A DNA stretch of 64,000 nt from Methanomassiliicoccus sp. (GTDB lineage: Archaea; Thermoplasmatota; Thermoplasmata; Methanomassiliicoccales; Methanomassiliicoccaceae): positions 62,001 through 126,000 of the forward strand of contig JADFDJ010000007.1 in the NCBI GenBank assembly GCA_018262895.1, given 5' to 3'. The translations under genes were made by a program, and so were the position numbers. The notes under the pieces are model-generated. The model saw only the letters and a list, made by a program, of their open reading frames with translations, had not been told where the DNA came from and did not search any database. How positions within the stretch are numbered: position 1 is the first letter of the stretch; each line of letters opens with the position of its first letter. Of the stretch, positions 15,920-22,728 are shown one piece after another.

Positions 15920-17020
15920 CTACTTAATAAAGTCGACGTCTACTATTTTTTTGGACCGGTCCTCACGGGGGCCGATGATGTTCTTGGACTTCACACCGGT
16001 GACGACCACCATCACGCGGACCATGTCCTTAAGAGCAGGATCGACAGCCGCACCCCATATGATCCGCGCGTTGGCAGATACCCTGCTCTGTATGATCTCC
16101 GCGACCTTCTCGGCCTCGGAGATGCTCATGTTCTCCCCACCGGTGACGTTCACCAGAGCTCCGGTTGCCCCAGATATGTCCACATCGATCAAAGGTGAGT
16201 TGATGGCCTCGTTGATGGCGTGTTCCACGCGGTCCTCGTCATCTCCCTCGCCCATTCCGATCATGGCCACGCCCGCGCCCTTCATGATGGTCTTGAGGTC
16301 GTTGAAGTCCAGGTTGACCAGCCCAGGCTTGGTGATGAGCTCGGTGATGCCTTTAATTGCACGCACCAGGACCTCATCAGCAACCTTGAACGCCGCGTTG
16401 AGGGCCAAACGAGGGCACAGCTCCAGTAGCTTATCGTTGGGTATTACGATGACCGTGTCCGCGGCCTGCCTGAGCCGCTCGATCCCCCAGTCCGCGTTCT
16501 CGGCCCTTATCACTCCCTCGGCCTTGAAGGGATAGGTGACCACCGCGATGGTCAATGCTCCCATGTCCTTGGCCAGTTTGGCCACGAAGGGAGCGGAGCC
16601 GGTACCGGTGCCTCCTCCCATGCCCGCGGTGACGAACACGATGTCCGTTCCGGTAAGGACCTTCCTCAGTTCCTCCTCGACCTCCTTTGCCGCCTCCTCA
16701 CCCACATGAGGCATCGCGCCTGCGCCAAGTCCCCTTGTGGAGCGCCTTCCCAGGAGGATCTTGTGCGGAGATCTTATCGCCAAAAGGTGCTGTGCGTCGG
16801 TGTTCGCAGCATAGATGTCTGCGCCAACGATCCCTACCTCGGACAACCGGTCGATGGTGTTGGAACCGCCACCACCGCAGCCGACGATCTTGATGTTCGT
16901 CCTCAGGCTTTCCAGGATCCTAACGAGCTCCTGGTCGGCCGATGTCTCATCAAACGGTGAATTAACGTCTCCGCCTTGGGCACTTGCGCGGGATATGGCA
17001 TCACTGAGGAATGATTTCAT
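15920..17020 (-). CDS. ftsZ: cell division protein FtsZ (paralogue 1)
   Basis: [39 protein letters not shown]. Confidence 0.97.
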
Positions 17021-17141
17021 TATAAGCCCTCCTGGGCAATGCCAGCTAGAGTGACCACTGGATGCCCGGGCAAAGCCTAAGAAGCATTTCTACGTTAAAA
17101 GGTTTCGGTGCTGTTCACCCTAACACTGGCTATCTGGAGGA

Positions 17142-17174
17142 ATAAAAAAGAGGCCGGAGGGGTGTGCCCCGGCC
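17142..17174 (-). terminator. hairpin plus T-tract downstream of the second ftsZ gene
   Basis: On the minus strand GGCCGGGG-N6-CCTCCGGCC-TC-TTTTTT. Confidence 0.6.
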
Positions 17175-17210
17175 TATAGGGAGGTGCGCTATGCTAGCTT
17201 CGATGGACCC

Positions 17211-18344
17211 TTACTTTATGAGGTCGATATCCGTTTCCTTCAGCCGAGCGGTCTCTCTGGCCTTGCCCAATATCTGCTTGGACTTCACACCCGTTATCAC
17301 AACCATGACCCTGATCTTGTGCTCCAGGGTGGGATCGATGGCCGCACCCCAGATGATGCGCGCTGTGGGCTGCACCTTGCTCTGAAGGACCTCTGCCACC
17401 TTCTGCGCCTCGGAGATGGTCATGTCCCCCCCTCCGATGACATTCACAAGGACGCCGGATGCACCAGCGATGTCCACGTCCAGCAAGGGGGAGTTGAGAG
17501 CGTCCTCGATGGCCTCCAGGGCCCGGTCCTCGGTCTGACCGCTGGACTCTCCCAGCCCGATCATGGCCACACCCGCGCCCTTCATGATGGTCTTCACATC
17601 GTTGAAGTCCAGGTTGACCAGCCCGGGCTTGGTGATTAGCTCAGTGATGCCTTTGATAGCCCTCATCAGTACCTCGTCGGCTACCTTGAAGGCGGCGTTT
17701 ATGGACAGGCGGGGGCAAAGCTCCAACAGCCTGTCATTGGGGATGACGATAACGGTGTCGGCGTTGTTCCGCAAGCGGTCCAGGCCCCACTCCGCGTTCT
17801 CCATCCTCATCTTCCCCTCTCCCCTGAACGGTATGGTGGTAACGGCTATGGTAAGAGCACCGATGTCCTTGGCGATCTTGGCGATGTAGGGAGCGGAGCC
17901 GGTACCGGTGCCTCCTCCCATGCCCGCGGTGACGAACACAATATTGGCATCTAGGAGAGCCTTGCGGAGCTCCTCCTCGGCCTCCATCGCTGACTCCTCA
18001 CCCACCTTCGGCAGCGCGCCTGCACCGAGGCCTCGGGTCGAGCGCCTTCCCAGAAGTATCTTGTGCGGTGCCCTTATGGCCAGAAGATGCTGGGCATCGG
18101 TGTTGGCGGCATAAAGCTCAGCACCGGATATACCCTCCTGAGCGATGCGGTTGATGGTGTTGGAACCACCACCACCGCAGCCGATGATCTTGATGTTTGT
18201 CTTCAACTTCTGCAGCAGATCTAACAGTTCCGCGTCGGCAGAACTCGATTGTTGACTGATAGTCCTAGACGACCCGACCGTTGGCCCAAACGGTGTAGCC
18301 GCAGCGCTTTCTCTAGCTAACGCTTCTTCGACCAAAGATTTCAT
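17211..18344 (-). CDS. ftsZ: cell division protein FtsZ (paralogue 2)
   Basis: [39 protein letters not shown]. Confidence 0.97.
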
Positions 18345-20501: not shown

Positions 20502-20512
20502 ATGTCTGACAT
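20502..20512. promoter_or_regulatory. third copy of TGTCnGACA palindrome (ATGTCTGACAT)
   Basis: Perfect 11-bp palindrome in CCAATATGTCTGACATTATCAATAAAAACA, context similar to the copy near 21292. Confidence 0.35.
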
Positions 20513-21117: not shown

Positions 21118-21269
21118 TTTTCCTGCTCCAAATCACGTTATCCGCCATTATTCTAAATTCATTATCTAGAATGAATCAAACTTTTTAATCTTTCATTCTG
21201 ATGGCGTGCGGTTTTGGCCGGCTGTTATCGCTCGTATAGTATTATATACTTCCTTTTCTATAATGACGT

Positions 21270-21280
21270 TTGTCAGACAA
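21270..21280. promoter_or_regulatory. candidate operator 1, TTGTCAGACAA
   Basis: Perfect 11-bp palindrome, about 20-25 bp downstream of TATA-like ATTATATACT (21241-21250). Confidence 0.5.
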
Positions 21281-21291
21281 TAATACCAATA

Positions 21292-21302
21292 ATGTCGGAC
21301 AA
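21292..21302. promoter_or_regulatory. candidate operator 2, ATGTCGGACAA
   Basis: TGTC-G-GACA palindrome centred 22 bp from operator 1, immediately upstream of the RHH gene. Confidence 0.5.
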
Positions 21303-21320: not shown

Positions 21321-21629
21321 ATGAGCGAGACTGAACGGATCACCATAAGGATACCGAGCGATAAGGTCGAGGCCTTGGAGGTGCTGGTAAGGGAGGGCAA
21401 GTACCCCACAATCTCTGATGCCATTCGAGCGGCCATCGACAGCTTCGTGGACAGCAACTTCACTCCCGATCACATCGAGCGGGTGACGGTGGAACTGCCC
21501 AAAGGCAACGTGGTGGAGCTCGAATGTCTGGTCAAGGACGGCGACTCCGTCTCGATCGACGATGCCATAAGGAACGCTGTGAGGGAGTATACGCGGAAGA
21601 GGCTCCGGGTCATGGAGGAAATGCACTAG
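21321..21629 (+). CDS. tandem ribbon-helix-helix (RHH) protein, CdrS-like
   Basis: Two aligned RHH units: ERITIRIPSDKVEALEVLVREGKYPTISDAIRAAIDSFV and ERVTVELPKGNVVELECLVKDGDSVSIDDAIRNAVREYT; ATG at 21321 or GTG at 21312. Confidence 0.85.
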   Translation: MSETERITIRIPSDKVEALEVLVREGKYPTISDAIRAAIDSFVDSNFTPDHIERVTVELPKGNVVELECLVKDGDSVSIDDAIRNAVREYTRKRLRVMEEMH

Positions 21630-21672
21630 CCGCATTGATCCACATGCTGGACATAGCGGAGGTGTTGAGGCT

Positions 21673-22728
21673 GTGATCAATTTCGGGTCCCTAGAGGACC
21701 TGCAGCAGGGCGCTGCGGAGCTCAAGATACTGGTCATAGGCTGCGGTGGAGGAGGGTGCAACAGCGTCCACCGCCTTACCAGCATAGGCATCCAGGGCGT
21801 CAAGACGATAGCCATCAATACTGACAAGAGCCACCTCCGGACCATCAACGCCGATCAGAGACTTCTCATAGGGAGCCAGGTGACCCGTGGCCTGGGGGCA
21901 GGGGGCATCCCGGAGGTTGGCGAGGGATGCATGGAGAACGCTTTGGGTGCACTGAACAACATCCTTCAGGACGCGGACCTGACCTTCATCACCGCCGGTC
22001 TGGGCGGTGGCACGGGGACAGGAGTGGCCCCCGTGGTGGCCCGGGAGGCGCGCAGGCACGGCTCGCTGGTGGTCTCCATGGCGACCACGCCCTTCCAGTT
22101 CGAGCGCGGGCGCCGCATGGAGGCGGCGCGCTGGGGCATCGGGAGACTCAACGACAACTCCGATATGATGCTCCTCCTGGACAACAACCGGCTCATGGAC
22201 ATGGTCAACCACCTGCCCATCGAGCAGGGCTTCGGGGTCATGGACCAGCTGATCTCGGAGATGATCAAGGGACTGGTGGAGGCGGTGACCCTGCCCTCGC
22301 TGGTAAACATCGATTTCAACGACCTCCGCACCATCATGCGCCACAAGGGGGTCTCCACGATATTGTATGGTGAGAGCACGGACCCGGACGGGGCGGTGCG
22401 GGAGGCGCTCGGCAACCCCCTTCTGGAGATCGATTATGAGGGAGCCACCGGCGCGCTGATCCACGTCACCGGCGGGGAGAAGCTGTCGGTGAGGAAGGTG
22501 ACCAAGGTCCTGGAGGGGATGAGCGAGCAGCTGGACCCTGAGGCGCAGGTGATCTTCGGGGCCAGGGTGGACCCCTCGTACAAGGACCTCATACGCGTCA
22601 TGGCCGTCATCACTGGCATCCAAGGGGTTGGCGAGAAGAAGGGCCGGCGGTCCCACGAGCGAGAGGAGCTGGTGAACACGATCGAGGAGCTGGTGGACGG
22701 AAGGCCCCGTCGTCGCTCACCGCGGTAG
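21673..22728 (+). CDS. FtsZ-family protein (paralogue 3), GTG start with upstream GGAGGTG
   Basis: VIGCGGGGCNSVHRL, GLGGGTGTGVAPVVA, NIDFNDLRTIM. Confidence 0.95.
   Translation: MINFGSLEDLQQGAAELKILVIGCGGGGCNSVHRLTSIGIQGVKTIAINTDKSHLRTINADQRLLIGSQVTRGLGAGGIPEVGEGCMENALGALNNILQDADLTFITAGLGGGTGTGVAPVVAREARRHGSLVVSMATTPFQFERGRRMEAARWGIGRLNDNSDMMLLLDNNRLMDMVNHLPIEQGFGVMDQLISEMIKGLVEAVTLPSLVNIDFNDLRTIMRHKGVSTILYGESTDPDGAVREALGNPLLEIDYEGATGALIHVTGGEKLSVRKVTKVLEGMSEQLDPEAQVIFGARVDPSYKDLIRVMAVITGIQGVGEKKGRRSHEREELVNTIEELVDGRPRRRSPR

Follow-up and report, generated by a model that had tools for sequence, protein, structure and literature searches.

The window analysed here is a 64,000-nucleotide stretch (G000:C28:62001-126000) of a 2.34-Mb archaeal genome from the order Methanomassiliicoccales. 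On its plus strand, an ATG-initiated gene at 21321-21629, named RHH-A, encodes a 102-aa protein with two ribbon-helix-helix (RHH) units, as supported by the open reading frame, profile matches, conservation and alignment. It lies directly 5' of ftsZ-A (21673-22728, same strand), which starts with GTG and encodes a 351-aa FtsZ. The RHH-A stop codon ends at 21629, and the resulting 43-bp gap holds a Shine-Dalgarno sequence (GGAGGTG, 21658-21664, plus strand, 8 nt before the GTG) and leaves little room for a promoter, supporting an operon. A sequence-only reading had proposed this arrangement, and it is confirmed by the reading-frame coordinates and by the RHH_1 profile (PF01402), which matches RHH-A in two stretches (44.7 bits, cut-off 20.5) and places it in the RHH superfamily. 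The ATG at 21321 is backed by relatives, in which similar protein beginnings occur at the same place. The neighbours of RHH-A encode TBP, a DUF1330 protein, FtsZ and a SpoU methylase.

Unit 1 (residues 5-46; 21333-21458, plus strand) comprises the strand ERITIRIP with an invariant Arg10, and helices at residues 13-24 and 31-46. Unit 2 (residues 53-101; 21477-21623, plus strand) comprises the strand ERVTVELP, in which the acid at Glu58 is conserved as Glu or Asp, and helices at residues 61-72 and 79-101; its best-conserved stretch is GDSVSIDDAIRNAVREYTR. The top curated match of RHH-A is the CdrS model NF058555, found in two stretches with E 1.2e-19 and a sum of 70.1 bits (44.0 and 27.1 bits for the single units), which does not reach the curated score of 100 bits. 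With 102 aa and two units, RHH-A is also not the short single-RHH protein described by the CdrS equivalog. A PDB sequence search with RHH-A returned nothing but meaningless OBody matches.

FtsZ-A contains both the GTPase and the C-terminal domain, scores 344.9 bits against TIGR00065 (cut-off 295.2) and has intact T4 (GGGTGTG) and T7 (NIDFND) loops. Among its relatives outside the family Methanomethylophilaceae (f5), T4 and T7 are each kept in 28/28 proteins and a GID-like tail is found in 1/28. The C-terminal tail of FtsZ-A itself, ...DGRPRRRSPR, lacks the GID motif, which mediates SepF binding in archaeal FtsZ2 according to PMC8178401. SepF is encoded in the same genome, and GID-like tails are present in the FtsZ1-type proteins encoded at 15920, at 17211 and on contig C12. 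FtsZ-A would need another route to the membrane and, having no SepF tail, would depend on the FtsZ1 paralogs for any action on the ring.

In an unrooted phylogenetic tree, whose references include no chromosomal Haloferax FtsZ2, the FtsZ1 clade (support 100/100), FtsZ-A (100/99) and the RHH-linked FtsZ2-like proteins (87/85) are separated, with FtsZ-A forming its own clade beside the last. As judged from this tree, FtsZ-A falls outside the FtsZ1 clade, either on the FtsZ2 side or as a third lineage. It had been counted as the third ftsZ, which is correct for the window; the genome encodes seven tubulin-family proteins in total. Four of them belong to the FtsZ1 clade, namely a tandem pair at 15920-18344 (minus strand) and two genes on contigs C12 and C27, and the others are FtsZ-A, a short FtsZ-B on contig C25 and a divergent one on contig C11. 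By eye, the tandem pair lies beside secE- and spt5-looking genes, and FtsZ1-type genes are also found within ~5 kb of the RHH-A/ftsZ-A operon in three relatives (G001, G015 and G135). The C11 protein (G000:C11:158126-158383; L017:3716-4648) has 310 aa and is very divergent, with a match to the latter half of the GTPase domain only; several relatives show partial matches of this kind.

Conservation of the RHH-A/ftsZ-A pair

The nearest named relative, PtaU1.Bin030, shares 99% identity in RHH-A. Across the order, RHH-A was found in 109 of 147 genomes, some of the weakest matches being other RHH paralogs. Of the 30 best loci, 29 have ftsZ directly 3' of RHH-A; G016 has RHH-A without ftsZ. This pairing is far beyond chance. 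In family f6, sequence identity is ~72-77% for RHH-A versus ~52-59% for its FtsZ. A phylum scan detected RHH-A relatives in the class Thermoplasmata and in some other Thermoplasmatota lineages, and FtsZ also follows such a relative in families f7, f8, f10, f20, f27, f29 and f38. In the Thermoplasmatales-like family f9, a pheT-like gene replaces ftsZ 3' of RHH-A in all nine loci examined (L201, L203-L206 and L208-L211), one of which was confirmed by TIGR00471 as pheT, encoding the Phe-tRNA synthetase beta subunit. RHH-A is kept in f9 genera g34 and g35, in which no tubulin-family gene was detected, and several f9 loci retain one GTCNGAC box. Single-RHH CdrS-like proteins occur with FtsZ in the sister lineages L215 and L220. 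These patterns show that a regulator of the CdrS type can undergo duplication, give rise to paralogs and outlast the loss of its FtsZ partner.

The initial view of the pair as a CdrS-like RHH and FtsZ module is upheld, with CdrS as the best curated match and the pair kept order- and class-wide. The further suggestions that it is an independent version, and that the pairing is new outside haloarchaea, did not hold up against the sister-lineage single-RHH versions and the literature: RHH-ftsZ2 synteny has been published for most archaeal clades (PMC7439475), and PMC8178401 describes 'ftsZ2 frequently with parD', the same genomic association. The RHH-A/ftsZ-A pair is a variant of the known CdrS-ftsZ2 arrangement, not an independent invention. 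As in the haloarchaeal system (PMC7439475, PMC8406309; NF058555), a small RHH protein is encoded directly 5' of an FtsZ that does not belong to the FtsZ1 clade and co-transcription is probable, and the unit-1 strand RITIRIP is close to RITIRFP of a haloarchaeal plasmid CdrS-like protein. RHH-A differs from CdrS in carrying two RHH units per chain and in scoring below the CdrS cut-off, and its partner differs from haloarchaeal FtsZ2 in forming a separate clade without the GID tail. Judged by a literature search that covered few subscription journals, the apparently new elements are the tandem form, the phased operator, a second system termed B, the patterns of loss and the linkage to pheT. The word 'tandem' is absent from the text of PMC7439475, and the accessible part of PMC8178401 does not mention tandem architecture, an operator or FtsZ decay.

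Promoter boxes

Upstream of RHH-A, a TATA-like element (TTATATA, 21242-21248, plus strand) is indicated by the sequence and by orthologous promoters. It is followed by two TGTCNGACA palindromes over the expected transcription start: box 1, TGTCAGACA, at 21271-21279 (plus strand) begins 29 bp past the start of the TATA-like element, which is the expected start site, and box 2, TGTCGGACA, at 21293-21301 (plus strand) lies 22 bp from box 1. This double site has a single exact occurrence in the genome, the next-best place having 3 mismatches. At least one GTCNGAC is present in 97/116 orthologous upstream regions versus 2.5% of control windows, and boxes paired at 22, 21 or 11 bp are present in 71/116 orthologous promoters versus 0/21,754 control windows. 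Counted by spacing, pairs lie 22 bp (61), 11 bp (9) or 21 bp (2) apart, and a single outlier has 91 bp; taken as sequence distances, the operator spacings are whole helical turns. In most orthologous promoters a TATA-like element lies 25-34 bp, mostly 29-31 bp, 5' of the first box.

An order-wide scan found one or two double sites in most genomes outside f5, with controls near zero, and located the site at the RHH-A operon in families other than f5. In f5 genus g18, system B is preceded by a double site. Second double GTCNGAC sites were observed in genus g2 of family f1 (L120-L125), upstream of a gene for a 135-aa membrane protein and of a TATA, and in f6 (L126-L129), near a gene for a ~719-aa TPR protein; both proteins are possible lineage-specific regulon members. 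A third, single TGTCNGACA box in the window (TGTCTGACA, 20503-20511), between the TBP gene and RHH-A, is compatible with chance, as at least 3 matches arose in 12/100 shuffles. No GTCNGAC was found in ~160 bp upstream of the haloarchaeal plasmid CdrS-like pair L138, and Rfam and bacterial promoter/terminator scans gave nothing useful.

Control of FtsZ levels in archaea is known in haloarchaea only, and RHH-A offers a specific predicted operator that is conserved across the whole class and consists of two TGTCNGACA boxes at the start site, spaced by 22 bp. The position of the boxes at the start site argues for repression, consistent with the rule stated in PMC8406309 that binding at this position leads to repression, and the operator predicts autorepression. 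Most mapped sites of Haloferax CdrS, in contrast, lie upstream of promoters, and CdrS is thought to activate ftsZ1 (PMC8406309). By analogy with this activation, and because the second double site of f1 genus g2 lies upstream of a TATA, RHH-A could also activate.

The proposed circuit and the reader of the boxes

Structure prediction of RHH-A gave two confident RHH half-units, as the initial proposal of a tandem protein implied. Both AlphaFold runs treated RHH-A as a monomer: with 55 sequences unit 1 alone was resolved, and with 94 sequences both units adopted the strand-helix-helix form (mean pLDDT 88, pTM 0.46) with unpaired strands. Foldseek matched the model best, with weak E-values, to the RHH domains of ParD and NikR. 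A pseudo-dimer in cis, between units 1 and 2 of one chain, was rejected because neither run paired the strands, although a monomer model could miss it. The model favours pairing in trans with a second chain, because the half-units are confident while their strands are unpaired, and two chains would then yield two ribbons, matching the two boxes. As the two boxes are identical, ribbons of the type 1+2' and 2+1' would be favoured over 1+1' and 2+2'.

In repressors of the NikR and MetJ type, the sites read by RHH ribbons are palindromic or paired and share one DNA face, and the NikR half-sites are about two turns apart. The boxes predicted to bind RHH-A are likewise palindromic, paired and on one DNA face, but RHH-A lacks the metal-binding C-domain of NikR and carries two RHH units in each chain. 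F-plasmid TraY and the archaeal virus regulator AvtR likewise have a pair of RHH motifs within a single chain; their context is unrelated, whereas RHH-A is linked to FtsZ and no cis ribbon is predicted for it.

The sequence-only reading had also noted that the two units differ and that one may have lost its DNA contacts. The difference stands; the loss appears less likely in view of the conserved Glu58 of unit 2 and the distribution of boxes in f5. In this family unit 1 of RHH-A is largely intact, and boxes are present at 17/20 loci whose unit-2 strand is intact versus 0/21 in which it is lost. Because the operator is kept with an intact unit-2 strand and absent where the strand is lost, it is more probable that unit 2 is required than that it has lost its function, although the loci are related and the link therefore represents a correlation over few independent events.

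The only other box-bearing RHH found is a stand-alone single-RHH CdrS-like protein of 79 aa (C11:236725-236961, L009; orthologs L331-L350). In 19 of its 21 loci a TGTCNGACA box lies ~30 bp past its own TATA; the remaining two are a mis-extracted locus and a locus with a near-box. An inverted repeat (AGAGGTC...GACCTCT) follows the box, and in the window's own genome the gene adjoins a PAC2-like gene identified by eye. These boxes raise the alternative that the single-RHH protein is the master regulator of both the operon and itself, with RHH-A acting as an antagonist through mixed ribbons, made plausible by the resemblance of the single-RHH strand EKVTIRLP to ERITIRIP of RHH-A unit 1. The single RHH occurs in every family but f5 (there in G103 and G104 only), nearly the same distribution as that of FtsZ with a C-terminal domain. 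However, it is absent from G016, and the RHH-A boxes persist there and in most f5 loci whose unit 2 is intact, so this alternative appears unlikely. RHH-A itself is most likely the reader of the boxes, because they persist in genomes without the single RHH; that protein, whose own promoter has the same box, may still bind or cross-regulate the RHH-A operon.

We favour, with good though not full confidence, a CdrS-type division-control operon whose tandem-RHH regulator would repress its own synthesis through two boxes and whose FtsZ-A would be an accessory FtsZ. RHH-A and FtsZ-A would be produced from one transcript. Each RHH-A chain would contribute two half-units that pair with a second chain, and the two-chain complex would cover both boxes, which share one DNA face, are separated by two helical turns and lie over the transcription start. 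Bound RHH-A would shut off the operon and so keep the amounts of both products fixed. FtsZ-A, GTPase-competent by its motifs and on the FtsZ2 side, would act on the ring via the FtsZ1 paralogs.

System B and Methanomethylophilaceae

System B (G000:C25:150223-151526; L016:3224-4528) comprises a tandem RHH protein of 127 aa and the short FtsZ-B of 268 aa, which has no C-terminal domain. Detected in 87/147 genomes, it is order-wide, like the single CdrS-like RHH outside f5. FtsZ lies 3' of the tandem RHH gene in 37/37 loci checked. Its promoter has a putative operator type of its own, TATGAC repeats that are commonly 10-11 bp apart, in 29/30 loci (background 7%). In FtsZ-B, the GTP-binding T4 loop is kept in 26/28 proteins and T7 in 0/28.

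In f5, T7 is likewise kept in 0/28 FtsZ-A proteins. FtsZ_C is absent from this family (~100 genomes, e.g. G030, G033, G036, G071 and G075) except for weak matches in G104 and G118, and in the other families each genome carries 2-8 FtsZ_C copies; several f5 genomes are single-contig assemblies of 98-99% completeness. The tubulin domain in four f5 genomes (G110, G117, G075 and G036) is that of FtsZ-B, accompanied in G075 by a degenerate FtsZ-A, and SepF was not found in 6/10 f5 genomes tested. As judged from these genomes, FtsZ-A decays in Methanomethylophilaceae and canonical FtsZ is gone. A literature search found no paper on FtsZ in this family of gut and environmental methanogens, and with canonical FtsZ missing and SepF missing in several, their mode of division can now be asked about directly.

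A wider interpretation sees in the tandem-RHH/FtsZ operons autonomous regulatory circuits whose transcription factor has a GTPase derived from FtsZ as its partner or effector, the RHH-linked FtsZ-like proteins of f5, the sole tubulin-family proteins found in the tested genomes, no longer building a canonical ring; we consider this distinctly unlikely. Even less probable, in our estimate, is that FtsZ-A and its paralog FtsZ-B are GTP-sensing partners that tune the RHH protein by titration or anti-repression and form no part of the ring, the operon being a small sensory circuit. The T4 loop of FtsZ-B together with its missing T7 and C-terminal domain, the T7 loss in f5 FtsZ-A, the constant proximity of both proteins to tandem RHH genes and the missing SepF tail of FtsZ-A fit such a role, but T7 is fully kept among the window's own relatives, and RHH-A persists without FtsZ-A in G016, several f5 genomes and Thermoplasmatales, which argues that RHH-A is independent of FtsZ-A.

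The reading of RHH-A as an ordinary ParD-like antitoxin gene beside ftsZ by chance is scarcely credible: despite the RHH fold, the Foldseek matches and the label 'parD' given to such ftsZ neighbours in PMC8178401, an antitoxin identity is contradicted by profile scores (17.3 bits against ParD TIGR02606, cut-off 46.2) and by gene context, with no toxin gene seen adjoining RHH-A and a linkage to ftsZ that is order- and class-wide.
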